A stretch of 64,000 bases of DNA from contig NZ_JANIGO010000001.1 in the NCBI RefSeq assembly GCF_024518835.1, positions 62,001-126,000 of the forward strand, given 5' to 3'. The notes beneath the pieces were generated by a model. That model saw nothing but the letters and a program-made list of their open reading frames with translations, ran no database searches and was not told the origin of the DNA. This stretch comes from Limnobacter humi (GTDB taxonomy: Bacteria; Pseudomonadota; Gammaproteobacteria; Burkholderiales; Burkholderiaceae_B). Position numbers and translations under genes: made by a program. Shown here in pieces: positions 28,954 to 44,271 of this stretch (the stretch's first letter is position 1; each line of letters begins with the position of its first letter).

Positions 28954-29241
28954 CTACCGCTGCTTGGCAACCCAGGCAAAGTGGCGTGCCAAGGCGTCAT
29001 CGCCCCGAAGTTGCTCCAGCGTCGGGAACTGCCGAGCCAAGGTCATTTCGTCATAGAGGTCGTGAATGCCATCGTGGCAGGTGCGGCACACATTGATGCC
29101 CTGATTGAGTTGCATCTTGTTGAAATGTCGCTGGAAAAAAGCGCGACGATGCAATTTTTTGGGAATCAGGTGATGGAATGTGAGTAGCGTCGTACGGCCA
29201 CAACAGGCACAAACGCCCTGCTTGATACGAAGTGAGGCCAT
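28954..29241 (-). CDS. Small HNH-type zinc protein
   Basis: A 95-residue protein with one CxxC near the N-terminus (ACCGRTTLLTFHHLIPKK) and a second zinc pair CRTCHDGIH in the middle. This is the HNH nuclease pattern (CxxC...HHLIPK...CxxCH). Stand-alone short HNH proteins of this kind are common and mostly uncharacterised. It lies 110 bp upstream of argS on the same strand. Confidence 0.7.
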   Translation of the reverse strand: MASLRIKQGVCACCGRTTLLTFHHLIPKKLHRRAFFQRHFNKMQLNQGINVCRTCHDGIHDLYDEMTLARQFPTLEQLRGDDALARHFAWVAKQR

Positions 29242-29297
29242 GGCATGTCAACAACGGTTGGGCTACGCCTATTGTGCCCCAACTGGGGAGCAGACTG

Positions 29298-29702
29298 TTA
29301 ACGCGACTTGCCACCCAGCACCAGCCGGCGAACTGGAGACACGCAGACCATGACGATGTTCAACAGCACAAAAGCACTCAAAAACAAATGAGCCTCGTTC
29401 AGCCGAAGGTGTGTGCTGAACACGGTTTGACTGACCCACGCCACCGAATGACGCAACCAGGGCAAAAATGGCCAGACCAATACAAGGCAAGCCGACAGCA
29501 CCGAGAACAGGGCCAAACCGACCAGCACACGCCGAAACAGGCCTGAAGCCGCATGCAAAATAACGAAGAGACCCAAGTTGATGGCCAGCCAGATGGCATC
29601 GCCCATCCAACCCTGGCGGGCCCAGGGAAACACCATGGCCCACGACAGGCAAACTGCGATGGCCAGAATGAGAATGCCGGTGGACTGCAGTGTTTTGTGC
29701 AT
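29298..29702 (-). CDS. Four-helix membrane protein, function unknown
   Basis: A 134-residue hydrophobic protein with membrane segments at about 6-27, 35-54, 58-80 and 104-125 and a basic C-terminus. No family is recognised. It lies 66 bp downstream of the CCA-adding enzyme gene on the same strand, so cotranscription is possible. Confidence 0.6.
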   Translation of the reverse strand: MHKTLQSTGILILAIAVCLSWAMVFPWARQGWMGDAIWLAINLGLFVILHAASGLFRRVLVGLALFSVLSACLVLVWPFLPWLRHSVAWVSQTVFSTHLRLNEAHLFLSAFVLLNIVMVCVSPVRRLVLGGKSR

Positions 29703-29768
29703 GGAAACCTCCCGAAACGAACCGTGTGTTTTTTTTGAAAGAAAGACAACGCGCGATGGCGCAGAAGG

Positions 29769-30992
29769 TTAACGCGTTCGGGATTTGGATCTGGGTTTGG
29801 CCCCGGAAGCCGATTGTGTTTGCTTCAATGTGGACAACCAAGCTTGACGAAAGGCGGCAATCAAACCGGGCATATCGGCTGGGACAGCCTGCGGAAGGCC
29901 TTCCAGATGCTGGCGCAGTGCTGCTTTGTAAGTGCCATCCAATTGCTGCTGCACAGCACAGCCCAACAAGGCGATGGTGTCGGTTTGGCCTCCGCGCTGA
30001 AAAAGCTGCAGGGCTTTGAAGGCCCGCTCTGGCTTACGGTACACGTCGATCTCGGTCAACAGGGCCAGTACATCGGCAATGCCGGGACTGGATCGACCCT
30101 CCAGCGCCTGAATGCTGGCCACCACGCGACAGAGGTCTCGCAATTCATTGGGGAATTTCAAGTGGGCTGCCACTCGGTCCAGGTGCTCACGATCCATGAA
30201 CAGGCCCAAGGCATAGGCCCAACGCAGCTCAACATCGCCCAGATCGAGCAAACCCCGAAACTGCGCCTCTTCAAAATGCGCCAATGCGCAATCCATACCC
30301 GGCAATAGCGCATCCCAAGCATTGAGCTTGCTCAACAGCTTGAACAGGCGCGCTGGCTTTTTTTCTCCCATGCCCCGGTTGAATTCTGCAAACACGCGTT
30401 CGGGGGTTAGGTGCTGCAATTCCCCCGACATCACCAGGCCACGGCACATTTCAAACGTCACCGGGTCAATGCGGAAATCCGTGAAGCGAGCCATGAAACG
30501 CCCCAAGCGCAACACACGAAGCGGGTCTTCGAGAAAGGCTCGACTCACATGTCGAAAGGTTCGATCTTGAATATCGCTCCAACCGTCGTAAGGGTCGATC
30601 ACCCGTCCCTTTGAATCCATGGCCATGGCATTGACTGTGAAGTCACGGCGGCGCAAATCCTCTTCCAGGCTGACAGACGGATCAGCAAAAAAAGTAAAAC
30701 CCTTGTAGCCTTGCCCGCTTTTGCGTTCTGTCCGCGCCAGTGCATATTCTTCATGGGTTTGGGGATGCAAGAAAACCGGGAAATCCGCACCCACGGGTGC
30801 AAAACCGGCAGCAGCCATGTCCTGGGGTGTGGCCCCAACCACCACCCAGTCCCGGTCTTGCGATGGGCTACCCAGCAGCGCATCCCGAACAGCCCCGCCC
30901 ACCACATACACCGCCACCTTGCGTGGTAATTTGGCCACTGTGGCATCGTGCTCAAAACCAGCAAGCAAAGGGAGTTCGGGCGTCAAAGTCAT
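29769..30992 (-). CDS. cca: CCA tRNA nucleotidyltransferase (class II)
   Basis: A 407-residue protein. The polymerase beta head has YVVGGAVRDALLG, the metal-binding DRD of DRDWVVVGAT and RRRDFTVNAMAMD. The RNA/nucleotide-selecting helix is seen in FLEDPLRVLRLGRFMARF. It adds or repairs the 3' CCA of tRNAs. The length matches E. coli CCA (412), but I do not see a clear HD phosphohydrolase motif in the C-terminal part, so the extra phosphatase activities may be missing. An ATG at 30992 is preferred to a TTG six codons earlier. Confidence 0.9.
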   Translation of the reverse strand: MTLTPELPLLAGFEHDATVAKLPRKVAVYVVGGAVRDALLGSPSQDRDWVVVGATPQDMAAAGFAPVGADFPVFLHPQTHEEYALARTERKSGQGYKGFTFFADPSVSLEEDLRRRDFTVNAMAMDSKGRVIDPYDGWSDIQDRTFRHVSRAFLEDPLRVLRLGRFMARFTDFRIDPVTFEMCRGLVMSGELQHLTPERVFAEFNRGMGEKKPARLFKLLSKLNAWDALLPGMDCALAHFEEAQFRGLLDLGDVELRWAYALGLFMDREHLDRVAAHLKFPNELRDLCRVVASIQALEGRSSPGIADVLALLTEIDVYRKPERAFKALQLFQRGGQTDTIALLGCAVQQQLDGTYKAALRQHLEGLPQAVPADMPGLIAAFRQAWLSTLKQTQSASGAKPRSKSRTR

Positions 30993-31057
30993 GGTGTGGG
31001 CGGGTGTCAAAACGCCGTCAGGGTACCACCTTGAGGGTGTTTGCGGTGCAGCGGCTT

Positions 31058-32620
31058 CTAGAGCGACTGCAACTTTTCAAAGGTTCGAGCCACCTGCCCG
31101 CGCAACTCGATGCGCTGGGCCTGCGAGAGCTTCCCGATGTTTTTGGCCATCAAGCCTGTGCGGGGGTTGGCCGCCAGCAAGGCCTCGTGCTTGTCCAGAA
31201 AGCCCCAATACAGGGTGGTGAACGGGCAAGCCTTATCGCCAGTTTTCACGGCAGGATCGTAGCGGCAGCCGCCACAATAATTGCTCATGCGCTTGATGTA
31301 AGCACCGGATGCAACGTAGGGCTTGCTGGTAAAGCGGCCCCCATTGGCAAACAAGGCCATGCCTGCCACATTGGGCAATTCCACCCATTCAACCGCATCC
31401 ACATACACGGCCAAAAACCAGTCTTCCACCTGCTGCGGCACCAGGCCGGCCAGCAGCGCGAAGTTGCCAATCACCATGAGGCGCTGAATGTGGTGGGCAT
31501 AGGCATGTTCCAAGGTTTGGCCAATGGCATCACGCAGGCAAGCCATGTGGGTTTGCCCCGTCCAAAACCAGTCGGGCAGCGGAACATCGGCCTTGAGCGC
31601 GTTGTCCTGGCGCATTTTGGGCATGTCCATCCAGTACACGCCGCGCATGAACTCCCGCCAACCCAGAATTTGCCGAATAAAGCCCTCCACGCCCGGCAAA
31701 TCAGCTCGCCCAGTTTTGTAGGCCGCCTCGGCACGCTGAATCACTTCCAGGGGGTTGAGCAAGTGAAGATTGATGGCAGCCGACAGCAATGAATGCCACC
31801 CAAATGGCGTATCGGTCCACATGGCATCCTGGTAGGGGCCAAACTGCCGAAGGCGATGGTCAATAAACACGTCCAGCGCCTTCAGGGCCTGCTCTCGCGT
31901 CACTGCCCAACCAAACCTTGCGAACGTTCCGGGGTTATCGGGCAAATGTCGCTCTACATCGGCCATCACAGCCAGCGTGAGTTCATCGGGTTCAAAACCG
32001 GCAGGCTCAGGAATTGAGCCTGGGCCTGTTTTGGGGTAAGCACTCCGATTGTCTGCATCGAAATTCCACTGTCCACCCTCTGGCTCGGCACCCGCCATCA
32101 AAATACCCGTGCGCCTGCGCATTTCCCGGTAAAAATATTCCATGCGCAGTTGTTTGTAGCCTGCGGCCCAACGAGCAAAATCGGCGCGCGAGCAAATGAA
32201 GTGTGGGTCGTCGTGAAAACGGATTTCAACGGCACGTTGACGGGCCATGTCCACCAACCCTTGCTCCAAACGCCATTCACCGGGCTCCATCAGGTCTATC
32301 CGGCGAATGCTGTGCTGCAGGCACAGGTCGAACACCATTTCACACAGTGATCGCTGCGCGGTGTCCGTCAACGTGTTGTAAATCACCGTATACCCTGCCT
32401 CGCGAAGCTTTCCGGCAAAATGGCGCATTGCACTCAGAAACAACACGGTTCGTGATTTATGACTCCACACCACGCGTGACTCATCCGCCGACTCGATCAT
32501 GAGCACGCCCACATCGGCAGGCGCACCCAACTGCAATGCCGGGTTATCCAGGGTCAGTTGGTCGCCCAACACCAGCACCCAGTGCTTGGGGATTTGCGTC
32601 AAAGCAGATTTAGTCACCAT
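31058..32620 (-). CDS. Iron-sulfur (6-4) photolyase/cryptochrome B-type (PhrB/CryB)
   Basis: A 520-residue photolyase-related protein (DPRP/FeS-BCP family). The N-terminal Rossmann domain starts at WVLVLGDQLT, and the FAD-binding C-terminal half has AYAHHIQRLMV (373-383). Four cysteines, C361, C449, C452 and C465, have exactly the spacing of the 4Fe-4S ligands in Agrobacterium PhrB (350, 438, 441, 454). Such enzymes repair (6-4) photoproducts with light; CryB relatives also regulate. It overlaps the DUF2256 gene by 11 bp and lies in the LitR transcription unit. Confidence 0.92.
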   Translation of the reverse strand: MVTKSALTQIPKHWVLVLGDQLTLDNPALQLGAPADVGVLMIESADESRVVWSHKSRTVLFLSAMRHFAGKLREAGYTVIYNTLTDTAQRSLCEMVFDLCLQHSIRRIDLMEPGEWRLEQGLVDMARQRAVEIRFHDDPHFICSRADFARWAAGYKQLRMEYFYREMRRRTGILMAGAEPEGGQWNFDADNRSAYPKTGPGSIPEPAGFEPDELTLAVMADVERHLPDNPGTFARFGWAVTREQALKALDVFIDHRLRQFGPYQDAMWTDTPFGWHSLLSAAINLHLLNPLEVIQRAEAAYKTGRADLPGVEGFIRQILGWREFMRGVYWMDMPKMRQDNALKADVPLPDWFWTGQTHMACLRDAIGQTLEHAYAHHIQRLMVIGNFALLAGLVPQQVEDWFLAVYVDAVEWVELPNVAGMALFANGGRFTSKPYVASGAYIKRMSNYCGGCRYDPAVKTGDKACPFTTLYWGFLDKHEALLAANPRTGLMAKNIGKLSQAQRIELRGQVARTFEKLQSL

Positions 32621-32795
32621 GCGCAGCCCCTTTCCGCTGCTTTCGGCAAGCCTCGGAACAGTACTTCACGTCATCCCAGTTTTTGGCCCAGCTTTTGCGC
32701 CAGGTCATGTCGCGCCCGCACACCGTGCAGGGCTTAGACGGCAAAGCGGACTTATTGCCTTTGAAGGTGCTGCGGGTACTGCTCGGTTTGGTCAC
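32610..32795 (-). CDS. DUF2256 small zinc-ribbon protein
   Basis: A 61-residue protein from a GTG start. The DUF2256 core is KPCTVCGRDMTWRKSWAKN, then WDDVKYCSEAC: two CxxC-like pairs plus a Trp-rich centre. DUF2256 genes commonly neighbour, or fuse to, cryptochrome/photolyase genes, and here it overlaps one by 11 bp. Longer frames exist upstream but would run into litR, which ends 11 bp before this start. Role unknown. Confidence 0.8.
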   Translation of the reverse strand: MTKPSSTRSTFKGNKSALPSKPCTVCGRDMTWRKSWAKNWDDVKYCSEACRKQRKGAAHGD

Positions 32796-32806
32796 GGTGT
32801 GGGGTG

Positions 32807-33754
32807 TCAGGCCTTGGGGCCCCGGTGTGGGTTGCGGGCACGCCAATCCGAAATGGCCTCTGCAATCGAATCCAGGGTGTGCAGCAACAAAAACTGCTCG
32901 CTGACTTTTTTGCGCAGGGCTGTGGAGGCACCACCGCACCAGATCTCGGTCTGGGCGGGCAACTTTTCCCGCAATTCAAAAATGGCATCCAGCGTGGATG
33001 GTGAGCCCTGAACCACGGAGAAAGACAGGGCCACGATGTCGATGGTTTGAGCCCGAGCAGCCAGAACAATGTCATAAATGGGGGTTTGTGTACCCAGCGA
33101 TACACATTGCGCCCCCTCCATGGTGAAAATACACTCTGCCATCAGCAGGCCCAAGCCATGCAATTCACCGGGCAGGGTGGTCAGCAGCACACGTGGGCCT
33201 TTGCGGGCTGACGGAATGGTATTGAGCGCATTGCGCAACACCACCTGAATGGTTTCGGTGTAAATGTGTTCTTCGAAAATTTCAAAGTAGCCGCGGGCCC
33301 ACGCATCGCCGACCATGGCATTCATGGGGGCCACCACATCGACCACAAAGCGCCGCAAGCCCATGGTGAGCGCCAGTCGGGACATGGTTTGGCGAAACTC
33401 TTCAGCATCATGGCGCTTGATGAGTTCCATGTAACCGTTCAACTCGTCCAGGCTGTCCGCGGCCACGTTCAGGCGCGCACCGGCACTGCTGACTTCGGAA
33501 ATTCTGACCAGCTCTTCAATACTCAAACCAATGATTTTTCCCGGGCGGTGACCACCGTCCAGCAGGCGCTTGATGACACGGAGCTTTTCCACCTGATCAA
33601 TCGGATACACCCGCTCACCGTAGGCATCACGCTGAGGCTGAGGAAAGCTGTAGCGCTTTTCCCAAACCCGCAGGGTGTCTTTGGGCAAACCAGTGTCACG
33701 CTCAACAGCAGCGATGGAAAATGCGGGTTGATTGAGATCGGCCCGCTCATTCAT
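32807..33754 (-). CDS. LitR/CarH-type MerR regulator with B12-binding domain
   Basis: A 315-residue regulator. The N-terminal MerR helix-turn-helix (11-80, including TLRVWEKRYSFPQPQRDAYGERVY) is followed by a helical B12-cap domain (about 100-180) and a cobalamin-binding Rossmann domain (about 185-305). The light-sensing signature W-x9-EH is intact (W152, E162, H163), as is the cobalt-ligand motif GELHGLG with H199. CarH/LitR proteins bind adenosylcobalamin in the dark as repressing tetramers and let go on illumination. It heads the DUF2256-photolyase unit and faces the folE2/CFA gene set. A start five codons upstream is possible. Confidence 0.9.
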   Translation of the reverse strand: MNERADLNQPAFSIAAVERDTGLPKDTLRVWEKRYSFPQPQRDAYGERVYPIDQVEKLRVIKRLLDGGHRPGKIIGLSIEELVRISEVSSAGARLNVAADSLDELNGYMELIKRHDAEEFRQTMSRLALTMGLRRFVVDVVAPMNAMVGDAWARGYFEIFEEHIYTETIQVVLRNALNTIPSARKGPRVLLTTLPGELHGLGLLMAECIFTMEGAQCVSLGTQTPIYDIVLAARAQTIDIVALSFSVVQGSPSTLDAIFELREKLPAQTEIWCGGASTALRKKVSEQFLLLHTLDSIAEAISDWRARNPHRGPKA

Positions 33755-33800
33755 ACAACAATCGTCCACATACCTGACACTTCCTGCACTGCGCTCAATG

Positions 33801-33817
33801 TTTTGTCCTAGACAAAA
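33801..33817. promoter_or_regulatory. Perfect inverted repeat, likely LitR operator
   Basis: TTTTGTC-CTA-GACAAAA is a perfect 7+3+7 inverted repeat in the litR/glutathione-peroxidase intergenic region, directly abutting the -35 element of the rightward promoter. A third TTGTC half-site lies at 33823-33827. The arrangement fits a MerR/LitR-type repressor acting on both directions. Confidence 0.65.
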
Positions 33818-33846
33818 TTGACTTGTCTGACTGTTCCCATAATAAT
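33818..33846 (+). promoter_or_regulatory. Sigma-70-type promoter for the rightward gene set
   Basis: TTGACT at 33818-33823 and AATAAT at 33841-33846 are separated by 17 bp. The start would be near 33853, about 65 bp before the glutathione peroxidase gene. The -35 box touches the inverted repeat at 33801-33817. Confidence 0.6.
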
Positions 33847-33919
33847 GGAACCACCCAGTTCGATTGACGTCAAATTATCACAAAGTTGAATAAATCACCA
33901 CACATATAGAGACATTCAC

Positions 33920-34552
33920 GTGAATTTGAGTTTAGTTTTCGCTCATCGACCCAACAGACTCTGCCAGTGCTTGGCCACCCTTTTGGTGTGGACAGCACTG
34001 TTTTTCTCAATGAACGGCCAAGCAGCAGAGAAAACACAGGCAACCATGGCCTGCCCGACGATTCTGCAACACACGTTCGCCCGGCTTCAGGATGAAAAGC
34101 CGGTGTCAATGTGCACCTTGAGCGGAAACGTCCTGTTGGTGGTAAACACAGCCAGCTACTGTGGTTACACAGGCCAGTACGAGGAACTGGAAAAGTTGCA
34201 GCAGCAATACAGTGCGCAAGGTTTTTCGGTGGTGGGATTTCCGTCGAATGACTTCGGTGGACAGGAACCCAAATCCAACAAACAAATTGCCGATTTTTGC
34301 GCCAACACCTTCGGCGTGAAGTTTCCCATGTTTGCCAAATCCAGCGTCACTGGGGCACAGGCCAACCCTTTGTACAAACAACTCACATCCTTGACGGGCC
34401 AAGCACCCTCCTGGAATTTTTTCAAGTACCTGATCGACCGCAATGGACAGGTGATTGGCGTTTACCGCAGCGGCATTTCACCCCTGAGCAACGAAATTAC
34501 CACCCCACTTCGCCGTGCTCTCGAAGCACCTCGCAGTACCCTTCAGCAGTAA
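33920..34552 (+). CDS. Exported glutathione peroxidase-family protein
   Basis: A 210-residue protein from GTG. Residues 1-36 form a signal peptide (hydrophobic LATLLVWTALFFS, then NGQAAE). The GPx thioredoxin fold has the peroxidatic C81 in NTASYCGYTGQYEEL, GFPSNDFGGQEP with the catalytic Gln, and the Trp in APSWNFFKYLI. Cysteine replaces selenocysteine. It would reduce hydroperoxides, including lipid hydroperoxides, in the periplasm, probably with thioredoxin-like donors. It is first in the rightward light-cluster operon. Confidence 0.88.
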   Translation: MNLSLVFAHRPNRLCQCLATLLVWTALFFSMNGQAAEKTQATMACPTILQHTFARLQDEKPVSMCTLSGNVLLVVNTASYCGYTGQYEELEKLQQQYSAQGFSVVGFPSNDFGGQEPKSNKQIADFCANTFGVKFPMFAKSSVTGAQANPLYKQLTSLTGQAPSWNFFKYLIDRNGQVIGVYRSGISPLSNEITTPLRRALEAPRSTLQQ

Positions 34553-34579
34553 TGGCCCAACAGCCAAGGAGAGCACACC

Positions 34580-35377
34580 ATGAACGCACCCGACTCCCTC
34601 TTTTTGCCAGATGAACAGTCCCGTGCTGACCTTCGCAACATCGCCATTCAGCGCGTTGGTATCAAATCGGTTCGCCACCCTGTGATTGTGGATACCCGCG
34701 AAGGTCCGCAGCCTTCCGTGGCCAACATCGACATGGCGGTGTTTTTGCCAGCCGATGTGAAGGGCACCCACATGTCTCGGTTTTTGGAAATTCTTCAACA
34801 GCAGGATCAGGCACTGACTGTTCGGGGCATGCGCACCATGATGCGTGAAATGCTGGCTCGCCTGGACTCCAATGCCGGTACCATCACCATGAAGTTTCCT
34901 TACTTTGTTCGCAAAGTGGCGCCTGTGTCTGGCGTGGCCAGTTTGCTGGACTATGAGGTGACGCTGGAAGCCGATAACAACGGCAAGGCGACCGATGTGT
35001 ACATCACCGTGTTGGTGCCCGTCACCAGCCTGTGCCCCTGTTCCAAGAAAATCTCTGAGTACGGTGCGCACAATCAGCGTTCTCATATCACCATTCGCGC
35101 GTTGGTGGGCGAAGGTGTGGATATTGAAGACCTAATTCGCATGGCCGAAGAATCAGCCTCCTGCGAATTGTGGGGCTTGCTGAAGCGGCCAGACGAAAAG
35201 TATGTGACCGAGAAAGCCTACGAGAACCCCAAATTCGTTGAAGATTTGGTGCGAGATGTGGCCATTCGCCTTCGTAAACACCACCAGGTGCTCCAATACC
35301 GGGTGGAAAGCGAGAATTTCGAATCCATCCACAACCACTCCGCAGTGGCCTGGATTGAGGAAGACAAGCGAAGCTGA
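34580..35377 (+). CDS. folE2: GTP cyclohydrolase IB (FolE2)
   Basis: A 265-residue protein of the FolE2/COG1469 family. The metal/catalytic cysteine is in [21 protein letters not shown], and [14 protein letters not shown] is conserved near the N-terminus. It converts GTP to dihydroneopterin triphosphate, first step toward folate and pterins. Photolyases and cryptochromes can use pterin antennas, so its place beside one and under a LitR-type promoter may be meaningful. GGAG at 34568-34571 precedes the ATG. Confidence 0.95.
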
Positions 35378-35386
35378 TCCGGGGTC

Positions 35387-35428
35387 TTGCTGCATCCAAG
35401 CCGGGCTTTTGCGGGTAGGATGCAGCAA
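35387..35428. other. Nested hairpin between folE2 and the flavoprotein gene
   Basis: TTGCTGCATCC (35387-35397) pairs perfectly with GGATGCAGCAA (35418-35428). Inside, AAGCC (35398-35402) pairs with GGCTT (35404-35408). No real T run follows on the plus strand. It may be an attenuator, an mRNA-stability element or a protein-binding site setting the level of downstream genes. Confidence 0.6.
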
Positions 35429-35451
35429 TTCCTTATCGCAATCACAACGCA

Positions 35452-36795
35452 ATGACAGACCAGACAGGCATGAATTTGAAGGTGAATTCCCCCAGACCCA
35501 CCGTGGCGGTTGTTGGCGGCGGCGTGTCCGGCCTGACAGCAGCCTATGCGTTGCGCGAACACGCAGACGTGACGCTGTTTGAAGCCAATTCATACATCGG
35601 TGGACACACCAACACGGTCGACATGGCGCTGCACGGACAGCATTTTCCGGTAGACACGGGGTTTCTGGTGTACAACGAGCGCACTTACCCCAACCTGATT
35701 CGTCTCTTTGATGAGCTGCAGGTGGAAACCGTGATGTCGGATATGTCTTTCTCGGTGTGTCTGCCGGAGTTGAACCTGGAATGGGCTGGCACCAACCTCA
35801 ACACCGTATTTGCCCAGCGCCGCAACCTGTTCAAGCCGCGCTTTTTGCGAATGCTGTTGGATATTCTGAAATTCAACAAAGAAGCCACTGCCTTGGTGGC
35901 CGATGCAGGGCGCGCCAATTTATTTCAAAGCAAAGCCCAGATGGGTTTGGGCGACTACCTGACGCTGGAAGGCTACAGCGCCGAGTTTCGGGATTGGTAT
36001 CTCATTCCCATGGCGGCGGCCATTTGGTCATGCCCCAGCGAGCAGATGCTGGCATTTCCCCTGGCCACGTTTGTGCAGTTTTGTCACAACCATGGCCTGC
36101 TGCAGGTGGAAAACCGGCCGAAGTGGTACACCGTGAAAAATGGCGCACGGAATTATGTCCAAAAATTACTGCCGCACATTCCGGTTGTTCATGCCAACAC
36201 CCCAGTGCTGCAGGTGGTCCCGGGCGTCCAACCTATCGTAAGGACGAACCAAGGCGGGCAGGCATTTGACCATGTTATTTTGGCCTGCCACAGCGACGAG
36301 GCCTTGGCCATGCTGAGCGGCAATGACGCCCAAAAAGACCAGCTGCAACACATTGCTTACCAACCCAATGTGGCTTACCTGCACACCGATGTGCGGTTGA
36401 TGCCCAAAACCCGCAGCACATGGTCGTCGTGGAATTACCTGAGCGATGTACTCAACCCGCAACCCAGCGTGTCAGTGACGTACTGGAGCAACAATCTTCA
36501 GCCCCTGCCCACTTCAACACCAGTGTTTGTGACCTTGAACCCCATACTGCAGCCCCGGGATGAACTGGTCCATCGTGAAATTCAGTACAGCCACCCGGTG
36601 TTTGATGGCGCAGCCGTGAAAGCCCAGGATGCCCTGCGGGCCCTTCAGGGGTTAAACAACATTTACCTGGCTGGGGCATGGATGAAGTACGGCTTTCATG
36701 AAGACGGCCACACATCCGGCCTCCAGGCCGCGGCGGCGCTGATTGAAAACCTGCGCAGCGGGCAAACCAGCGGCACGGCACAACGGGCGGCCTGA
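35452..36795 (+). CDS. FAD-dependent amine oxidase-like flavoprotein
   Basis: A 447-residue protein. The dinucleotide-binding motif VVGGGVSGLTAAYAL is near residue 17, followed by FEANSYIGGHTNTV, and the C-terminal FAD contact is YLAGAWMKYGFHEDG. This group of flavoproteins (COG2907) almost always neighbours DUF1365 and CFA-type methyltransferase genes, as here. I infer a redox step on membrane fatty acyl chains or a related lipid. The stop overlaps the next start by one base (TGATG). Confidence 0.85.
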   Translation: MTDQTGMNLKVNSPRPTVAVVGGGVSGLTAAYALREHADVTLFEANSYIGGHTNTVDMALHGQHFPVDTGFLVYNERTYPNLIRLFDELQVETVMSDMSFSVCLPELNLEWAGTNLNTVFAQRRNLFKPRFLRMLLDILKFNKEATALVADAGRANLFQSKAQMGLGDYLTLEGYSAEFRDWYLIPMAAAIWSCPSEQMLAFPLATFVQFCHNHGLLQVENRPKWYTVKNGARNYVQKLLPHIPVVHANTPVLQVVPGVQPIVRTNQGGQAFDHVILACHSDEALAMLSGNDAQKDQLQHIAYQPNVAYLHTDVRLMPKTRSTWSSWNYLSDVLNPQPSVSVTYWSNNLQPLPTSTPVFVTLNPILQPRDELVHREIQYSHPVFDGAAVKAQDALRALQGLNNIYLAGAWMKYGFHEDGHTSGLQAAAALIENLRSGQTSGTAQRAA

Positions 36796-37616
36796 TGGGC
36801 GCTGGCACCTACCACTGCCACGGTGTAAAAATGGCCTGGGGGCAGGTTCGCCACCGCCGTGAAAAACCGAAAGCAAACGGATTTGCAACCGGGGCCTGTT
36901 TTGTCAAACTGGTGTTCAAGCCTGAGCCCTGTGCCCATACTCTGCCACGTTACCCGGTGATTGACGGTCGCGGCCTGGCATCGGTGAGCGCAAGTCATTA
37001 TGGTTTTGAGCAGCACAACGAACGATTTGACACCTTCATCCCCAGCCTGGTCGCTCGAGTCGAAGGCGAGAGCAGCGAGGCCTTGGGTGGCGAAGTACAC
37101 CTGCACACCTTTCCCAAGACATTTGGTTTTGTCTTCAATCCAGTCAGTTTCTGGTACTTCCACAACACGGCCGGGCAATGCCGCGCCCTGCTGTGCGAGG
37201 TCAACAACACCTTTGGCGAGCGACATTTTTACCTGCTGCACCAAGAAGGCCCATTCAGAGCACCATTGGACAAGGGCCAAGCCATGATCGCCCGGAAGGT
37301 GTTCCATGTGTCGCCTTTTTTTCCGGTGTCTGGCCACTATGAATTCCGGTTTTTCAATCAAGCAGACCGCACGCTGGCCAGCATTCGTTATTTCGACCAA
37401 GGCGAACTGAAACTCAGCACCAGCGTGAGCGGTACCCTGGTGCATCCAAGCACTGCGCTGTGGTGTAGAACATGGATGAAATACGGCTGGTTTACACTGG
37501 CTGTGGTGGTCAAAATTCACTGGCAAGCCGTGAAGCTGCTGTTCAAAGGCGCCAAATTCCACCGAAAACCCGAACCCCCGAGCAATGTGATTTCGCAGAC
37601 CGAGTTGAACGTATGA
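36795..37616 (+). CDS. DUF1365 protein
   Basis: A 273-residue protein. The family start GQVRHRREKPKANGF and the later FVFNPVSFWYFHN, EVNNTFGERHFYLL and KVFHVSPFFPVSGHYEFRF are typical DUF1365. No catalytic chemistry is established. It is coupled on both sides: one-base overlap with the flavoprotein gene and ATGA overlap with the CFA-type gene, which points to one enzyme complex or pathway. Confidence 0.88.
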   Translation: MGAGTYHCHGVKMAWGQVRHRREKPKANGFATGACFVKLVFKPEPCAHTLPRYPVIDGRGLASVSASHYGFEQHNERFDTFIPSLVARVEGESSEALGGEVHLHTFPKTFGFVFNPVSFWYFHNTAGQCRALLCEVNNTFGERHFYLLHQEGPFRAPLDKGQAMIARKVFHVSPFFPVSGHYEFRFFNQADRTLASIRYFDQGELKLSTSVSGTLVHPSTALWCRTWMKYGWFTLAVVVKIHWQAVKLLFKGAKFHRKPEPPSNVISQTELNV

Positions 37617-38836
37617 CCCAAGCCGCAGTAAGCCTTTCGCAATTCCAGTTGCCCAGTCACGCCCCTTCCGCCGCGCAGTGGACCCTGAAGCTGCTCAACA
37701 AGCTCAAAAAGGGCCGCTTGGAAATGATCACGCCAGAAGGTGTTCACCTGCTGTTCGGTGGTGAGGATGATCAGCCCAGCGCGCGCATGACCCTGCATTC
37801 CTGGGCAGTGTGCAGCAGGGCCTTGAAATCTGGCGACATTGGCTTTGCTGAAAGCTACATTGCGGGCGAATGGGAAACAGACAACCTGGCTGAATTGTTG
37901 GGTGTGTTCCTTGAAAACCGCAAAGCGGTTGAGCAGGTGATTTACGGCAGTTTCCTTGGCAGCATTGCTTACAAGCTGAAACACCTGTTGAACCGCAATA
38001 CCAAGGCGCAAGCCCGAAAAAACATTCATGCCCACTATGACTTGGGCAACCCGTTTTACCAGCTGTGGCTAGACCCTTCCATGACCTATTCCAGCGCGCT
38101 GTTTGACGGCAACACCAGCCTGAGCCTGGAAGAGGCGCAGCAGGCCAAATACCAGGCCATGGTGGACTATCTGCGCCCCAAAGCTGGCGAAACCATTCTG
38201 GAAATTGGCTGCGGTTGGGGTGGCTTTGCCCAAAAGGTGTGCAGCCAGGGCGCAGAATTGGTGGGGCTCACCCTGTCTACCGAACAACTGGCCTACGCCA
38301 AGGCACGGCTCGACCGCGCTGGCCTGGGCCAGCATGCGGAATTTCGCCTGCAGGATTACCGGGACTGCAAAGGGCAGTTCGATCACATTGCGTCGATTGA
38401 AATGTTTGAAGCGGTGGGCGAGGAATACTGGTCGGTGTATTTTGAAACCGTCAGCCGCTTGCTGAAAACTGGCGGCAAAGCCGCCATTCAAACCATCACG
38501 ATTGCCGATGAGCTGTTTGAACGCTATCGCAAAGGCACCGATTTCATTCAGCAGTACATTTTCCCGGGCGGCATGCTGCCCAGCCCCAGCAAGTTCCGCG
38601 CAATGGCTGAAAGGCATGGCCTGCGGGTGGTGCGTGAGAAGGCCTTTGGCAAGGACTACGCCGAGACCCTGCGTCGCTGGCGTGTTCAATTCATGAAACA
38701 GCTGGATGCGGTGCGTGCACAGGGCTTTGACCAGCCCTTCATCAACACGTGGGAGTTTTACCTGGCGTATTGTGAAGCCGGCTTCCAGTACGAAAGCACC
38801 GACGTGATCCAGTTCTATCTCGAGAAAGCGGAATAA
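37613..38836 (+). CDS. Cyclopropane-fatty-acid-synthase-type SAM methyltransferase
   Basis: A 407-residue protein of the CFAS family. SAM motif I is ILEIGCGWGGFA near residue 200, and the motif HYDLGNPFYQLWLDPSMTYSSALF is present. True CFA synthases usually read YSCAY/F at the last part; here Ser replaces that Cys. This Ser-type paralog is found in flavoprotein-DUF1365 clusters and in furan fatty acid pathways, where a CFAS-like enzyme adds a methyl branch to an unsaturated acyl chain. Branching rather than cyclopropanation is inferred. Confidence 0.85.
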   Translation: MTQAAVSLSQFQLPSHAPSAAQWTLKLLNKLKKGRLEMITPEGVHLLFGGEDDQPSARMTLHSWAVCSRALKSGDIGFAESYIAGEWETDNLAELLGVFLENRKAVEQVIYGSFLGSIAYKLKHLLNRNTKAQARKNIHAHYDLGNPFYQLWLDPSMTYSSALFDGNTSLSLEEAQQAKYQAMVDYLRPKAGETILEIGCGWGGFAQKVCSQGAELVGLTLSTEQLAYAKARLDRAGLGQHAEFRLQDYRDCKGQFDHIASIEMFEAVGEEYWSVYFETVSRLLKTGGKAAIQTITIADELFERYRKGTDFIQQYIFPGGMLPSPSKFRAMAERHGLRVVREKAFGKDYAETLRRWRVQFMKQLDAVRAQGFDQPFINTWEFYLAYCEAGFQYESTDVIQFYLEKAE

Positions 38837-38853
38837 GTTATACAAGGCCCTGC

Positions 38854-40245
38854 ATGGACAAACCTGTTTCTGTCGGGCCCCGCGCCCTCATTACCTATGG
38901 ATTGCTGGGTTGGGCCATGGGCGCCGTTGTGGTGCCCATCTATATCCAAGTGCCCTACCTGTACAACCGCGTGTACGAGGTTCCCTCTGCATGGGTGGGT
39001 GTCATCCTGCTGCTGTCGCGGTTGATTGATGCGGTGCTGGACCCTGCCATTGGGCTCTGGGTAGACCGACGCAGCAGCAACACCAACCGGTATGTATTCC
39101 CGATTGTGTTGTCCGTGCCTTTTTTGCTGCTGGGCATGGCTGGGGTGTTTTTTCCTGTGGGTAGCACACCAGTTCACCATGCCGCCAGTTTAATGGTCAG
39201 CTTGCTGGTGGTGCATTTGGGTTACAGCCTGGTCAGCATTGCATACCAAAGCTGGGGCGCCGAGCTGGGCAATACCGACAAGGAACGGTCCACATTTGTG
39301 GCGGTGCGCGAAGGCGTGGGCATTTTTGGTGTGATTTTTGCCGTGTCGCTTTCACTGGAAACCCATGGCGTGTTGATCTACACGGTTTTTGTGGCCATGC
39401 TGCTGGCTGGCCTGTATGTGCTGCTCAAGTATTCACTCACGCCCGCCGATTATGCGGGTCAGGCCAGACCAGCCCACCATCAATCCACCCACGGCATCCC
39501 TGTGGGTTCCCTGCGACGGCTTCAACAGGCGATCGCGGATGTGCTGCACCCGCTGTCCCACAGTAACTTCCGTCGCCTAATGGCCGTTTTTTTGTGCAAC
39601 GGACTGGCCGGCGCATTGCCCGCCACCCTGGTGCCCTTCTACATGCGTGACCGCCTTGGCCTGACCGATGCAGACCAGTGGGTGCTGGCGGTTTACTTTT
39701 TGGTCGGCGCCGTATCCACGGTGTTTTGGGTCTGGTTGTCCAGTCGCTTGGGTTTGGCCTGGACCTGGCTGTGCAGCATCGTCATCACCGTGCCCACGTT
39801 TGCCCTGGTGGCCACGCTGGGTGAAGGCGATTTTCAGCCCTACCTGTGGGTGTGCATTGTGACCGGCTTTGCCTTGGGGGCCGATTTGTCCATGCCGGCG
39901 GCCCTGGTGGCCCGCGTGATTGGCGACAATGGTGAACGCGGCAGCAACGAGGGCACCTACTTCGGCCTGTGGAACTGGATGACAAAGCTCAACCTGGCAT
40001 TGGCACCCACCGTGGCCTTGGGTACCCTGCAGTGGTTCAACTATTCGCCAGACATTGCCAAAACCGAGGCCTTTAAAGCCATGGGCTTATTAGACCAATT
40101 GGCCAATGACCCTTTGATCTGGATGTATTCCCTCATTCCCTGTGGCCTGAAAATTCTGGCCATGGTCCTGTTGGTGTTCAGTGGCCTGGGTGGGCGCCCC
40201 CAAGCAGTGCCGGCCAACACCGCCACCCACCGGAGCGCAGCATGA
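38854..40245 (+). CDS. MFS transporter of the GPH/MFS_2 type
   Basis: A 463-residue protein with 12 predicted membrane helices. The first cytoplasmic loop region has LLSRLIDAVLDPAIGLWVDR, the glycoside-pentoside-hexuronide family pattern, and DKERSTFVAVREG lies after helix 4. Within this cluster a lipid or lipid-precursor substrate seems more likely than sugar, since MFS_2 proteins also carry lysolipids, but that is inference. Its stop overlaps the next start (ATGA). Confidence 0.85.
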   Translation: MDKPVSVGPRALITYGLLGWAMGAVVVPIYIQVPYLYNRVYEVPSAWVGVILLLSRLIDAVLDPAIGLWVDRRSSNTNRYVFPIVLSVPFLLLGMAGVFFPVGSTPVHHAASLMVSLLVVHLGYSLVSIAYQSWGAELGNTDKERSTFVAVREGVGIFGVIFAVSLSLETHGVLIYTVFVAMLLAGLYVLLKYSLTPADYAGQARPAHHQSTHGIPVGSLRRLQQAIADVLHPLSHSNFRRLMAVFLCNGLAGALPATLVPFYMRDRLGLTDADQWVLAVYFLVGAVSTVFWVWLSSRLGLAWTWLCSIVITVPTFALVATLGEGDFQPYLWVCIVTGFALGADLSMPAALVARVIGDNGERGSNEGTYFGLWNWMTKLNLALAPTVALGTLQWFNYSPDIAKTEAFKAMGLLDQLANDPLIWMYSLIPCGLKILAMVLLVFSGLGGRPQAVPANTATHRSAA

Positions 40246-40814
40246 TGTTCACAAAAACTGTTGATTGGAACATGGGTCGACCCCTCACCCGTTTGTTGGC
40301 CGCCAGTGCCCTGTGCATGGGCTTGCTGGGGGCCTGTGCATCGCCCCCGGTGGCCAGCGACTATGCCCAGGAAAAACCGGTATTGGACATTGCCCAGTAT
40401 TTCAACGGCACCATTGATGCCTGGGGCATGTTCACGGATCGTTCCGGGCGCGTGGTCAAGCGTTTTACGGTGGTCATGAATTGCCGCTGGGACGGCAATG
40501 TCGGCACCTTGGACGAAGACTTTACTTATTCTGACGGCAGCTCCCAGAAGCGCAGTTGGACCTTGACCAAAACCGGCAATGCCGTGGTGGGCAAAGCAGC
40601 CGATGTGGTGGGTGAAGCAACCGGACTTCAGGCGGGCAACGCCTTCAATATGAAGTACACCTTGCAGGTGCCAGTGGATGGCAAAACCTACGACATGCAG
40701 TTTGACGACTGGATGTATTTGATGGACGAGAAAACCATGTTGAACCGCGCCGTGATGAGCAAGTTTGGCATTGAACTGGGTCAGGTCACCCTGAGCTTTC
40801 GAAAACGCAATTGA
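40242..40814 (+). CDS. DUF3833 lipoprotein
   Basis: A 190-residue protein. The lipoprotein signal peptide ends with lipobox LLGAC near residue 32. The DUF3833 body (YFNGTIDAWGMFTDRSGRVVKRF and FDDWMYLMDEKTMLNRA) is a beta-rich fold known almost only from these lipid/photostress clusters. It is probably anchored to the periplasmic side of a membrane. A second Met follows directly after the first, so the start is uncertain by one codon. Confidence 0.85.
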   Translation: MMFTKTVDWNMGRPLTRLLAASALCMGLLGACASPPVASDYAQEKPVLDIAQYFNGTIDAWGMFTDRSGRVVKRFTVVMNCRWDGNVGTLDEDFTYSDGSSQKRSWTLTKTGNAVVGKAADVVGEATGLQAGNAFNMKYTLQVPVDGKTYDMQFDDWMYLMDEKTMLNRAVMSKFGIELGQVTLSFRKRN

Positions 40815-40834
40815 ACACAAGGTAGTCAACAACC

Positions 40835-41626
40835 ATGGCACTGAACCGACCCATCACGGATTGGAAAGGCAAACGGGTCTGGCTGGTGGGCGCGTCCACC
40901 GGGATTGGCGAGGCGCTGGCACGACAACTCGATGCGCAGGGCTGTCAACAGGTGTTGTCGGCCCGCAGTGCTGACAAACTGGCTGCATTGGCCAAGGACT
41001 TGAACCAGGCCATGGCCGTGCCGGTGGACATTGCAGATGAGCATGCGGTGGAACAGGCTGCGCGCGTGGCCTTGCAGTACTTGGAAGGCATCGATCTGGT
41101 GGTGCTCATGGCCGGAACCTATGCGGAGATGGCCATCGAGAACTTTGATCTGACCGAGGTGAAGCGCCAAGTCAACGTCAACCTGAACGGCACGCTGCAT
41201 GTGCTGGCCCAGGTGCTGCCTGTGGTCATGCAACAAAGGGCGGGGCACATTGCGGTGGTGTCCAGTGTGGCTGGGTACCGCGGCCTACCCAACTCATTGG
41301 CCTATGGCCCCACCAAAGCGGCCCTCATTAACCTGGCCGAAGCGCTGTATGTGGAATTGAAACCACACGGCGTGGGCGTTAGCCTGATCAACCCCGGGTT
41401 TGTCGACACCCCGCTGACCCGCAAAAACACATTTCCCATGCCCTTCATCATTGGCGCGGACAAGGCGGCCAGCGAAATCATCTACGGCCTGGAAGCTGGG
41501 GAATTTGAAACCCATTTCCCGAAAACGTTTACCCGTAGCCTTCGGGCCATGCGACTGATGCCCTACTCCCTGTATTTTTCTGCGGTGAAACGGTTTGCAA
41601 AAACCCAGCCACCAGGAACCGATTGA
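40835..41626 (+). CDS. Short-chain dehydrogenase/reductase
   Basis: A 263-residue classical SDR. The nucleotide-binding motif is VGASTGIGEAL near residue 15. The catalytic Ser is in VVSSVAGYRG, and the Tyr-Lys pair is in YGPTKAA. It reduces or oxidises a carbonyl or hydroxyl with NAD(P)H; the substrate is unknown. It lies 20 bp after the DUF3833 gene in the same operon. Confidence 0.88.
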   Translation: MALNRPITDWKGKRVWLVGASTGIGEALARQLDAQGCQQVLSARSADKLAALAKDLNQAMAVPVDIADEHAVEQAARVALQYLEGIDLVVLMAGTYAEMAIENFDLTEVKRQVNVNLNGTLHVLAQVLPVVMQQRAGHIAVVSSVAGYRGLPNSLAYGPTKAALINLAEALYVELKPHGVGVSLINPGFVDTPLTRKNTFPMPFIIGADKAASEIIYGLEAGEFETHFPKTFTRSLRAMRLMPYSLYFSAVKRFAKTQPPGTD

Positions 41627-41644
41627 ATGCGGATTGATTGAACC

Positions 41645-42121
41645 ATGAGCCCACGCAACCCCGAAACCAGCCTGGCCCCACTGGACCGCCAGCACTTGTC
41701 AGCTCCACTTCGGCGCCTGATTGATTTTTTTGAGCACATGACCCCAGCCAGTGCCGACACGCTGGACCAGCATTACGCGGCGGATGCCTATTTCAAAGAC
41801 CCTTACAACGAGGTCAATGACCTGGCATCCATTCGCCGCATTTTTCTGCACATGTTTGAGCAGGTGAACAACCCGCGCTTTGTGGTTCACACCGCGTTTG
41901 AACAAGGCGAGCAGGTGTTTTTGGGTTGGCACTTCCTGTTTGAAATGAAGCAGTTCAAAAAAGGGCAGCTGCAGTGCTGCCGGGGTTCAACCCATGTGCG
42001 GTTGAACAAACAAGGGCTGGTCCAATTCCACCGGGATTATTGGGACCCAGCCGAAGAGTTGTACGAAAAAATTCCCGTGTTGGGCAATTTAATGCGTTGG
42101 ATCAAAAAGCAGGCAGGTTAA
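41645..42121 (+). CDS. NTF2-like/SnoaL-fold protein
   Basis: A 158-residue protein with the NTF2-like cone fold, suggested by LDQHYAADAYFKDPYNEVNDLASIRRIF and by GSTHVRLNKQGLVQFHRDYWDPAEE. Members act as small isomerases, cyclases or binding proteins. It is the last gene of the rightward set, followed by a 128-bp gap holding an imperfect hairpin (42136-42161). Confidence 0.8.
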   Translation: MSPRNPETSLAPLDRQHLSAPLRRLIDFFEHMTPASADTLDQHYAADAYFKDPYNEVNDLASIRRIFLHMFEQVNNPRFVVHTAFEQGEQVFLGWHFLFEMKQFKKGQLQCCRGSTHVRLNKQGLVQFHRDYWDPAEELYEKIPVLGNLMRWIKKQAG

Positions 42122-42249
42122 CAGCGGATGAATGCTGTTGTGAACATACGTTCACTCAACAAGCAGATGTCACCAAAACTTCATTTGTTTCATGACATGT
42201 CTTGTTAAAATCATACACATTGAAAGTTACAGGTTAGGCGGAGACAAAC

Positions 42250-43116
42250 ATGCTGTACCCCGAATTGTTCAGATCACTGGAGTCCGTTCGCTGGAACATG
42301 GAAACCGATATTCCATGGGATCAGTTCGACGCGAGCAAGTTGAGCGAAGAACAGGCCCAGACCATCAAGATGAATGCCATCACGGAATGGTCTGCCCTGC
42401 CGGCCACGGAAATGTTCCTGCGCGACAACAAGCACGACAGCGACTTCTCCGCCTTCATGTCCATCTGGTTTTTTGAAGAGCAAAAGCACTCGCTGGTGTT
42501 GATGGAGTACCTGCGCCGCTTCCGTCCGGATTTGCTGCCCACGGAAGAGGAGCTGCATGCGGTGCGCTTTGAATTCGATCCGGCACCGCCGCTGGAGACA
42601 CTGATGCTGCATTTTTGCGGTGAAATTCGTTTGAACCATTGGTACCGATGTGCCTCTGACTGGCACACCGAGCCGGTGATCAAACACATTTACAAAACCA
42701 TTTCGCACGATGAAGCACGCCATGGTGGCGCGTACTTGCGCTACATGAAAAAAGCCCTTCAAGATGTGGGTGACAATGCGCGCGCGGCTTTCTCCAAAAT
42801 TGGTGTGCTCATGGCATCGGCCCGCCGCACGCAAAAGCCACTGCACCCCACCAACCTGCATGTGAACAAAGCGCTGTTCCCCAACGACACAGTGCAAAGC
42901 CGCCTGCCCGACCCCGATTGGCTGGAGCGCTGGCTGGACGGCCAGATTCGCTTTGACGCCGATTGGGAAAAGAAAGTGATTGAGCGCATTTTGCACAACA
43001 TGAGCCTGCTGTTTGAGCGCACCTTCGAGAGCGTTCAGGATTTGAACCGTTACCGAAAGGAAGTGATGTCGCGACTGGGTGGTGGAGAAGACACCGCACT
43101 GGGCAACGCTGCCTGA
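42250..43116 (+). CDS. Diiron ferritin-like protein related to acyl-ACP desaturase
   Basis: A 288-residue helical protein. The four-helix diiron ligand set is present in order: E46 (AITEW), E77 and H80 (EEQKH), E125 (CGEIRLNH), and E155 and H158 (DEARH). This is the pattern of soluble stearoyl-ACP desaturases, with somewhat shorter spacing. It could oxidise or desaturate an acyl chain with O2. It sits alone on a new promoter region (GGCGGAG ribosome site) beside the lipid/photostress set, which makes a link plausible. Confidence 0.75.
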   Translation: MLYPELFRSLESVRWNMETDIPWDQFDASKLSEEQAQTIKMNAITEWSALPATEMFLRDNKHDSDFSAFMSIWFFEEQKHSLVLMEYLRRFRPDLLPTEEELHAVRFEFDPAPPLETLMLHFCGEIRLNHWYRCASDWHTEPVIKHIYKTISHDEARHGGAYLRYMKKALQDVGDNARAAFSKIGVLMASARRTQKPLHPTNLHVNKALFPNDTVQSRLPDPDWLERWLDGQIRFDADWEKKVIERILHNMSLLFERTFESVQDLNRYRKEVMSRLGGGEDTALGNAA

Positions 43117-43128
43117 GGCTGCCAACAC

Positions 43129-43623
43129 ATGACAAGCACAGGGAAACCGGCCCGATTCAATGCCAAGGTATGCACACCCAAAGAACTCGCTGACCACGCC
43201 AGAACATTGAAAGGACCAGTGGTGTTTACCAACGGCGTGTTCGATCTGTTGCACCGCGGGCATGTGACCTACCTGGACCAAGCAGCTCAGGAAGGCGCCA
43301 GCCTGATTGTGGCGGTGAATTCCGATGCATCGGTGAAGCGTTTGGGCAAGGGCCCAGACCGCCCCATCAACACCCAGGAAGACCGCATGGCCGTATTGGC
43401 AGCACTGGAGTGCGTGAGCCTGGTCACTTATTTTGAAGAAGACACGCCACTGAACGCCATCTTGGCTGCCAGGCCAGACGTCCTGGTGAAAGGTGGTGAC
43501 TGGCCGGTGGAAAAAATGGTGGGGGCACGGGAAGTACAAGCTTGGGGTGGTCGGGCTGTATCGATTGCCTTTGAACACGAGCGTTCAACCACGGCCACAC
43601 TGGAAAAAATCCGCAAGCTCTAA
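43129..43623 (+). CDS. rfaE2: D-glycero-beta-D-manno-heptose 1-phosphate adenylyltransferase
   Basis: A 164-residue nucleotidyltransferase. The HxGH motif is HRGHVTYL near residue 39, and FTNGVFDLLH precedes it. GGDWPVEKMVGA and ERSTTATLEKI complete the RfaE2 pattern. It makes ADP-heptose for the LPS inner core. It is the stand-alone C-terminal half of HldE, and the kinase half is not in the window. It starts 12 bp after the diiron gene. Confidence 0.92.
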   Translation: MTSTGKPARFNAKVCTPKELADHARTLKGPVVFTNGVFDLLHRGHVTYLDQAAQEGASLIVAVNSDASVKRLGKGPDRPINTQEDRMAVLAALECVSLVTYFEEDTPLNAILAARPDVLVKGGDWPVEKMVGAREVQAWGGRAVSIAFEHERSTTATLEKIRKL

Positions 43624-43697
43624 GTGGGGCTCGGAGCTCGCGGATGGGCCGTCATGTTGCAAACGGCGGAACAACGGAAGACTTCAACAACGAATGA

Positions 43698-44174: not shown

Positions 44175-44271
44175 ACAGTTCCCTCAATTGGGTTGTTCAG
44201 GTGTCTCAAGAACGAACCACCCAGAGAACTGGTTGACAAGTTTGCAGGCTGCCTACGCACATGGAGTGAGT

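Follow-up and report, generated by a model that had tools for sequence, protein, structure and literature searches.

A predicted light-controlled photo-oxidative protection locus under a B12-type LitR regulator in Limnobacter humi

The region from 31058 to 42121 of a 64,000-nucleotide stretch of the Limnobacter humi genome (hereafter the window; C1:62001-126000, from a genome of 3.24 Mb) carries litR, a gene for a LitR/CarH-type regulator, oriented divergently from a set of lipid-modification and stress genes (Table 1). We propose, with a probability of roughly 0.75, that the locus serves photo-oxidative protection and is controlled by light through a B12-dependent LitR, with furan lipids and DNA repair as its output. 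The genes, their conservation, and a palindrome in the divergent promoter region that recurs in relatives are directly observed in the sequence.

A response to light, the furan products and the control of transcription in both directions are predicted, as follows. In the dark, LitR loaded with adenosylcobalamin (AdoCbl) would occupy the palindrome beside the -35 box of the divergent promoter region and repress transcription; light would cleave AdoCbl, LitR would be released and both transcripts would rise. The leftward transcript would encode LitR itself, the DUF2256 protein and an FeS-BCP photolyase for DNA repair, while the rightward one would provide a periplasmic glutathione peroxidase (GPx)-like enzyme and FolE2 for pterin supply, together with UfaD-, UfaO- and UfaM-type enzymes that would turn unsaturated phospholipid chains into furan fatty acids by methylation, desaturation and oxygenation. 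An MFS transporter, a calycin-like DUF3833 lipoprotein, an SDR and an NTF2-like protein would accompany them in conserved roles. The same repressor would control two further operons of the genus, one with an SDR-photolyase-like pair and one for a 137-aa receiver-like protein. Precedents exist both for LitR-type light control and for furan lipids (PMC7380195, PMC9758184, PMC8156234).

Results and discussion

The regulator and the photolyase

In a sequence search, the best PDB chains for LitR were Thermus thermophilus 3whp (E-value 5.3e-27) and CarH 5c8d (E-value 6.6e-27). The protein combines a MerR helix-turn-helix with both B12 subdomains (the Pfam B12-binding match, with an E-value of 2.2e-6, lies below its cut-off, and the B12-binding_2 match above), and its closest relative among the titled matches, from Limnobacter sp. 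P1, is 86% identical. It carries the Wx9EH motif, as WARGYFEIFEEH, and, with one residue departing from the published form, a second motif region that reads ExHx2G-x41-SxS-x27-GG. The genome encodes a PduO-type adenosyltransferase, while the genome search returned no match for a BtuR-type one. These features suggest a LitR of the class I, LitR/CarH type, predicted to bind B12 and to release its DNA in the light, and the protein would be expected to sense light directly. The initial annotation had described a light and singlet-oxygen response; the second half of that label suits the products of the locus and not its sensor, since LitR is expected to sense light itself.

The photolyase found its best PDB match in 9hnk (E-value 2.8e-147), and also matched the (6-4) photolyase 5kcm, PhrB (4dja) and CryB (3zxs). 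The cysteines of its MACLRD, SNYCGGCRY and KACPF segments align by eye with those of 9hnk and make up the set of four that is characteristic of FeS-BCP enzymes; we take them to be the Fe-S ligands.

The operator and the promoter

Two sets of loci were compared: a first set of 33 litR loci (L031-L063), and a second set made up of the 80 top-ranking loci out of at least 555 titled ones, many of the 80 on short contigs and some from genomes also present in the first set. The litR promoters have in common the palindrome TTTGTC-YWR-GACAAA, whose halves TTTGTC and GACAAA are invariant around a YWR centre in all 14 aligned promoters of the genus. In the window its core (TTGTCCTAGACAA) ends two bases before the TTGACT of a sigma70-like site, which is the sole plus-strand site in the 12.3 kb between 30900 and 43200. 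The sigma70 scan yielded 2 sites overall, as against 5.2 expected from shuffled sequences, so that the weight of the predicted promoter rests on its place and conservation. That the predicted operator adjoins this site agrees with the divergent control by LitR postulated by the initial annotation.

The best operator score upstream of litR was at least 13/15 in 70 of the 80 loci of the second set, 12 in eight and 10 in two. Among 1464 random 350-bp windows from the same loci (those within 600 bp of litR excluded) one scored 13 and none higher, and 20 permuted consensuses matched on average 0.1 of 79 loci. Because the consensus was read from the first set, some loci of which recur among the 80, this test lacks full independence. 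In the lipid-module loci of LitR-free relatives (20 of the 22 such genomes; G177 and G179 were left out) the palindrome is absent, with best scores of 9-12/15 within 1.3 kb upstream of fad, the gene for the FAD-dependent enzyme, in 20/20 loci. We infer that LitR is the protein that binds the palindrome.

Many relatives carry the operator twice. Two copies (at least 12/15) lie 62-64 bp apart in 37 of the 79 loci with enough upstream DNA, and this spacing holds for 37 of 49 neighbouring operator pairs. In 25 of the 37 two-copy promoters a TTG[AG]C box starts 17-19 bp past the start of the first copy and points away from litR. The litR module of the Azoarcus sp. KH32C plasmid pAZKH (L289) has two operator sites 74 bp apart; its LitR has the B12 motifs, and the plasmid is typed as mobilizable. 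In the window the sequence ATTGACGTCAAAT occurs at 33863-33875, near where other genera carry the second operator; it could be a decayed copy and was not counted. The exact pattern TTGTCNNNGACAA was also tried: it occurred in 4 places versus 6 in the control, and two of the places (L099, L100) were discarded for lack of the YWR core.

Like the CarH of T. thermophilus, the window LitR unites MerR and B12 domains and has its predicted operator at a promoter, which the CarH operator overlaps; CarH, however, binds three 11-bp direct repeats, nAnnTnnACAn (PMC8156234), whereas here the repeat is inverted and, in many relatives, doubled. No description of the palindrome operator was met among the matches listed when the literature was searched by operator string or by topic, and within that literature the palindrome and its layout look new.

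Conservation of the gene neighborhood

litR is present in 14 of the 15 other genomes of the genus, and in all 13 loci of sufficient length (the remaining one, L044, is cut) it stands divergent from folE2-fad-DUF1365-cfa-mfs-DUF3833-sdr-ntf2, where cfa encodes the CFAS-family methyltransferase. In the first set as a whole, 25 of the 33 loci have fad-DUF1365-cfa pointing away from a divergent litR, and the placement of the CFAS gene after DUF1365 is conserved; L059 has another orientation, L044, L045 and L054 are cut by contig ends, and the set is absent from L058, L060, L062 and L063. The 80 loci of the second set gave the following counts: fad 58, DUF1365 56, cfa 55, mfs 46, sdr 46 (a number that may include SDRs of other kinds), DUF3833 42, gpx 35, ntf2 34, folE2 23, DUF2256 15 and a photolyase of the type found in the window 14. 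The gpx gene is near full length in only seven of the 13 other genus loci (two have remnants, four no match), hence GPx is dispensable. A Chalcone_3-like gene lies between cfa and mfs in 13/13 other genus loci, at a place where the window has 17 bp; the best match to it in the 64-kb window has an E-value of 0.51, the rest of the genome not having been searched for one.

The variable members GPx and folE2, seen in 35 and 23 of the 80 loci (many of which are cut by contig ends), together with eleven Duganella-type litR loci that have none of the genes of the window nearby, would suit a loose neighborhood of stress genes in which LitR controls only itself and the photolyase. We regard this as highly improbable, because the sole plus-strand promoter-like site adjoins the operator, the TTG[AG]C box that follows the first site in 25/37 two-site promoters is directed away from litR, and the palindrome is found in 53 of the 58 litR loci with fad. 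The gene arrangement is not due to chance: the comparison of neighborhoods that the initial annotation had suggested gives a non-random picture, both in the divergent set (25/33 loci) and in the palindrome (70/80), and its view of a LitR-centred light cluster is upheld in that a MerR-B12 protein with CarH-type motif regions (one residue departing) stands divergent from a conserved protection set.

The Duganella/Pseudoduganella loci just mentioned (L239, L245, L247, L252, L261, L275-L277, L280, L281 and L284) do carry palindromes, as a 62-bp operator pair in 9 of the 11. Three loci of the type described here (L215, L232, L279) come from metagenome bins titled Bordetella parapertussis, and these titles look misassigned.

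The lipid module and the protection genes

The window encodes together a CFAS-family protein, an FAD enzyme and a DUF1365 protein, i.e. the three enzyme families of furan fatty acid synthesis (PMC7380195). In Rhodobacter sphaeroides, UfaM methylates cis-vaccenyl chains, UfaD desaturates them and UfaO (DUF1365) is needed for the insertion of oxygen from O2; each of the three is required, and the DUF1365 homolog of Rhodopseudomonas palustris is reported to perform the same step (PMC7380195). The FAD enzyme of the window gave weak matches, under the cut-off, to the carotenoid desaturase family. Furan fatty acids quench singlet oxygen.

Other members of the cluster have regulated counterparts as well. 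An exported GPx (PgpD) belongs to the RpoE2-ChrR regulon of Shewanella, along with an operon that holds phrB and cfa (PMC4336711), and the genes listed as controlled by LitR in Pseudomonas putida include folE2, ufaM and phrB (PMC8508746). The statement of the initial annotation that this gene mix has no described joint function is not supported: given the Ufa families, the GPx of the ChrR regulon and the LitR-controlled folE2, ufaM and phrB, the joint function would be photo-oxidative protection, and most of the set has been described in other bacteria, so that it is not a novel mix.

The DUF3833 protein has a lipobox cysteine, Cys32, invariant in 48/48 aligned proteins. Its AlphaFold2 model is a ten-strand barrel (mean pLDDT 94.1) for which Foldseek reported BFA1 as the best match (E-value 1.1e-5, TM 0.61), with nitrophorins, nitrobindin and lipocalins at lower ranks. 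We read this model, new here, as that of a putative ligand-binding, lipocalin/calycin-like lipoprotein.

Evidence against the proposed function, and alternatives

Several observations weigh against the proposed reading of the locus. At one position LitR has Ser where the published CarH motif, ExHx2Gx41SxV/Tx22-27GG (PMC8156234), asks for Val or Thr, and the strict motif is absent from all 33 proteins of the first set and present in 17 of the 80 of the second (when V, T, S or A is allowed the counts rise to 28/33 and 73/80; the way in which the 80 were fetched biases them towards both motifs). A second operator copy was not recognised in the window, which has one exact site and four further matches, each with 2 mismatches, at least 9.9 kb off and at chance level, which means that the present sequence of this genome does not show the two-copy layout. 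When one mismatch is allowed, the operator has 30 matches in the genome, versus 49 for the reversed-pattern control; being rarer than in the control, such matches were rejected as operators genome-wide, and we rely on sites that are either exact or conserved. The putative Ufa assignments are drawn from family, gene order and neighbors. Finally, single deletions of RSP1087, RSP1088 and RSP1089 were without effect on furan fatty acids in R. sphaeroides (PMC7380195).

The departure from the CarH motif might mean that LitR senses no light through B12 of its own and, like a class II protein, responds to a separate photoreceptor or to the redox state, much as the LitR of Pseudomonas mendocina acts with a LOV protein (PMC9758184). 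This is quite unlikely, since both B12 subdomains were detected and the Wx9EH and [ED]xHxxG motifs occur together in 30 of the 33 LitRs of the first set, which came from a whole-protein search, while the MerR partners of the same module in Salinivibrio and Aeromonas, unlike the LitRs, lack the B12 motifs. Both motifs are also present in 80/80 titled loci, which says little because that set was fetched with peptide patterns holding parts of them.

As to the lipid genes, their product could be a related one (cyclopropane, methyl-branched or methylated diene chains), with the FAD and DUF1365 proteins acting on other substrates. The best NCBIfam matches of the CFAS-family protein are cyclopropane fatty acid synthase models, under their cut-offs, and the evidence for furans comes from two alphaproteobacteria (PMC7380195). 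We nevertheless consider a non-furan product unlikely, in view of the R. sphaeroides requirement for all three enzymes and the R. palustris homolog cited above, and because the FAD-DUF1365-CFAS order is kept in Beta- and Gammaproteobacteria, while in an alphaproteobacterium the genes occur next to ChrR without CFAS. The preferred reading thus remains a light-sensing LitR with a furan-lipid output.

The predicted regulon and the 137-aa protein

The exact pattern TTGTCYWRGACAA occurs 37 times in the 16 genomes of the genus, versus 12 for a reversed-pattern control. Altogether 31 of the 37 sites have an assigned target, lying before litR (14), before the gene for a 137-aa protein (15) or before an SDR-photolyase-like operon (2); those without one are in L127 and L128 (both G015), L132 (G011) and L133 (G010), and at G012 C1:624739 and G009 C88:9826. 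In L127/L128 one exact palindrome precedes a response-regulator-like open reading frame (ORF) and one lies behind a trpC-like ORF (both labels by eye).

The SDR gene of the SDR-photolyase-like operon was found, with identities of at least 63%, in 13 of the 16 genomes, the one containing the window included, and in 13/13 a site scoring 13-15/15 is located 47-49 bp before the FVMGA motif of the SDR (of 300 mononucleotide shuffles, at most one reached such a score). The operator of this operon in the genome of the window has one mismatch. The gene that follows encodes an FAD-binding photolyase domain in both copies scanned (L115, L118).

The 137-aa protein is encoded behind the operator in 15 of the 16 genus genomes, and within the order it was found in 2 of 300 genomes, both from this genus; it has no Pfam family and no PADLOC match. 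Its AlphaFold2 model (pLDDT 87.5) has a receiver-like fold: many REC chains match it with TM 0.5-0.7 and E-values of about 1e-3, KaiA chains are among the matches, and the first rank is taken by a dehydroquinase-like protein. Receivers carry a phosphorylated Asp at the end of strand 3. No phospho-acceptor Asp is present at that place, where an invariant Arg60 closes the strand 52-60, so that, judging from the model, phosphorylation of the usual kind would not be expected. We predict a three-operon LitR regulon in the genus, new here, comprising the window locus, the SDR-photolyase-like operon and the 137-aa receiver-like gene.

More speculatively, and at somewhat less than even odds, the paired inverted-repeat operators, separated by some six turns of the helix, may enclose the sigma70 promoter and be bridged by one AdoCbl tetramer, the resulting repression loop being opened by light, and in Limnobacter the same switch may drive the genus-private, non-phosphorylatable receiver-like protein as a light-made adaptor to another signalling route. 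In the literature searched, such a looped two-operator layout of betaproteobacterial B12-LitR is not described for CarH.

Known systems and exchange of regulators

Among the closest parallels are the LitR-family repressors PplR and PmlR of P. putida and P. mendocina, which control phrB, an SDR, an FAD oxidoreductase, ufaM, hypothetical genes, a two-gene cryB operon and folE, from sigma70 promoters that carry a repressor site at the -35 box and a second one further downstream (PMC9758184). In P. mendocina the SDR, the FAD enzyme and ufaM lie in a nine-gene light operon, separate from the cryB operon (PMC9758184). Unlike the regulator described here, PplR and PmlR are class II LitRs, thought unable to bind B12 and receiving their signal via the LOV protein, and their operator is TGTACA-N12-TGTACA (PMC9758184), as against TTTGTC-YWR-GACAAA with a B12-motif LitR here.

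In R. sphaeroides, the genes controlled by sigmaE-ChrR (ufaM and the RSP1091-1087 operon) include ufaD-ufaO followed by genes for 402-, 186- and 245-aa proteins; an ECF sigma factor and the anti-sigma factor ChrR stand there in place of LitR, and ufaM lies elsewhere (PMC7380195). The window has, in parallel, an MFS (463 aa), a DUF3833 (190 aa) and an SDR (263 aa) protein after its ufaD-ufaO-ufaM counterparts. We presume RSP1089-1087 to be the counterparts of these three. The 19 ORFs scanned from 27434 to 45189 include no rpoE-chrR pair; Cupin_7 matches in the genome lie at C1:700412-701032 and C23:95217-95840.

Four plasmid records were compared, chosen from the 25 matches listed of 93 matching DUF1365. 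A Rhodobacterales plasmid has sigma-ChrR divergent from FAD-DUF1365-MFS, without CFAS. Plasmid operons of Salinivibrio and Aeromonas, DUF1722-MerR-phrB-NTF2-SDR-FAD-DUF1365-CFAS-..-DUF3833, unite nearly the same genes as the litR locus in one run; they differ in gene order, in a MerR without B12 motifs and in the TTGTACAA- or TTGTATAA-like repeats upstream. Related gene sets of Shewanella, with a periplasmic GPx, are controlled by ChrR (PMC4336711), and the blue-light response of Vibrio cholerae requires ChrR and a MerR protein (PMC5241685).

The synteny spans families: outside the genus, too, the genes are kept in the order fad-DUF1365-cfa-mfs-DUF3833-sdr, which recurs behind TetR and partly behind ECF/RskA and ChrR, and FAD-DUF1365-CFAS occurs in that order in Beta- and Gammaproteobacteria. 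Within the family, 37 of 121 genomes encode DUF1365, and 15 of these 37 have a full-length LitR, encoded at most 5 kb from DUF1365 in 13 (farther in G050, on different contigs in G065). In 15 of the 20 LitR-free loci a TetR gene (identified by Pfam for two proteins, by tblastn for the others) is centred at most 1.2 kb upstream of fad, and these 15 keep DUF3833 and sdr after cfa. An ECF sigma/RskA pair lies within 4 kb in three others (L198, L199, L201), L186 has a weak ECF match 3.8 kb downstream and a ChrR-type Cupin_7 domain 2.4 kb from DUF1365, and L202 has a Cupin_7 domain alone, 5 kb from DUF1365; in all of these fad-DUF1365-cfa occurs without DUF3833. In the TetR-linked modules (L187-L197, L200, L203-L205) the TetR gene is divergent and a chalcone-isomerase-like gene often comes first, and in four of them a classical photolyase adjoins the TetR gene.

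Gene calls

Pfam hidden Markov model matches across 31058-42121 confirmed the genes named by the initial annotation at the places it gave. The DUF2256 gene overlaps the start of the photolyase gene. For litR, ATG 33754 is the more likely start, rather than GTG 33769, and the CFAS gene probably begins at ATG 37613, not at 37472, because of the ATGA overlap with the DUF1365 stop.

Table 1. Features of the litR locus (window coordinates)
Feature	Coordinates	Strand	Evidence
FeS-BCP (CryPro/PhrB-type) photolyase, 520 aa	31058..32620	-	Pfam DPRP, E 3.4e-74
DUF2256 small protein, ~61 aa	32610..32795	-	Pfam DUF2256, E 8e-20, within ORF 32610-32939; probable GTG start
LitR/CarH-type B12 regulator	32807..33754	-	MerR_1, B12-binding, B12-binding_2
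Predicted LitR operator TTTGTCCTAGACAAA	33802..33816		core at 33803-33815
Predicted sigma70 promoter of gpx...ntf2 operon	33818..33846	+	TTGACT-17-AATAAT
Exported glutathione peroxidase-like protein, 210 aa	33920..34552	+	GSHPx, E 7e-33; hydrophobic N-terminus by eye
folE2, GTP cyclohydrolase	34580..35377	+	GCHY-1, E 2.2e-90
FAD-dependent UfaD-like enzyme	35452..36795	+	Amino_oxidase, E 9.6e-19
DUF1365 protein, UfaO-like	36795..37616	+	DUF1365, E 1.7e-56
CFAS-family methyltransferase, UfaM-like	37613..38836	+	CMAS, E 1.9e-83 (ORF from 37472); probable start
MFS transporter, GPH-like	38854..40245	+	MFS_2, E 1.8e-50; gph, E 7.3e-17, under its cut-off
DUF3833 lipoprotein	40242..40814	+	DUF3833, E 4e-66
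SDR	40835..41626	+	adh_short, E 2.8e-44
SnoaL/NTF2-like protein, presumed end of the operon	41645..42121	+	SnoaL_2, E 3.4e-12

Beyond the cluster, positions 42250-43116 encode a 288-aa ferritin-like protein, with weak FA_desaturase_2/AurF matches only, an unconvincing best PDB match of E-value 0.024 and no PADLOC match. The gene is found at 72-97% identity in 23 of the 33 litR loci; it was dropped as an operon member because coaD is also matched in 21 of those 23 and because its side relative to litR varies among the loci.

Conclusions

To a gene set known in large part from other bacteria this analysis adds the palindrome and its layout, a regulon of three operons that includes a receiver-like gene private to the genus, the calycin-like DUF3833 model and a map of regulator exchange, all of them predictions as far as function is concerned. 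The locus would link B12 light sensing, membrane protection by furan fatty acids and DNA repair by photolyase in ordinary betaproteobacteria, many of which are represented by metagenome bins from lakes, and the conserved palindrome would make their light regulon predictable from sequence. The effector module shared behind LitR, TetR, ECF/RskA and ChrR-type regulators presents a clear case of regulator exchange.

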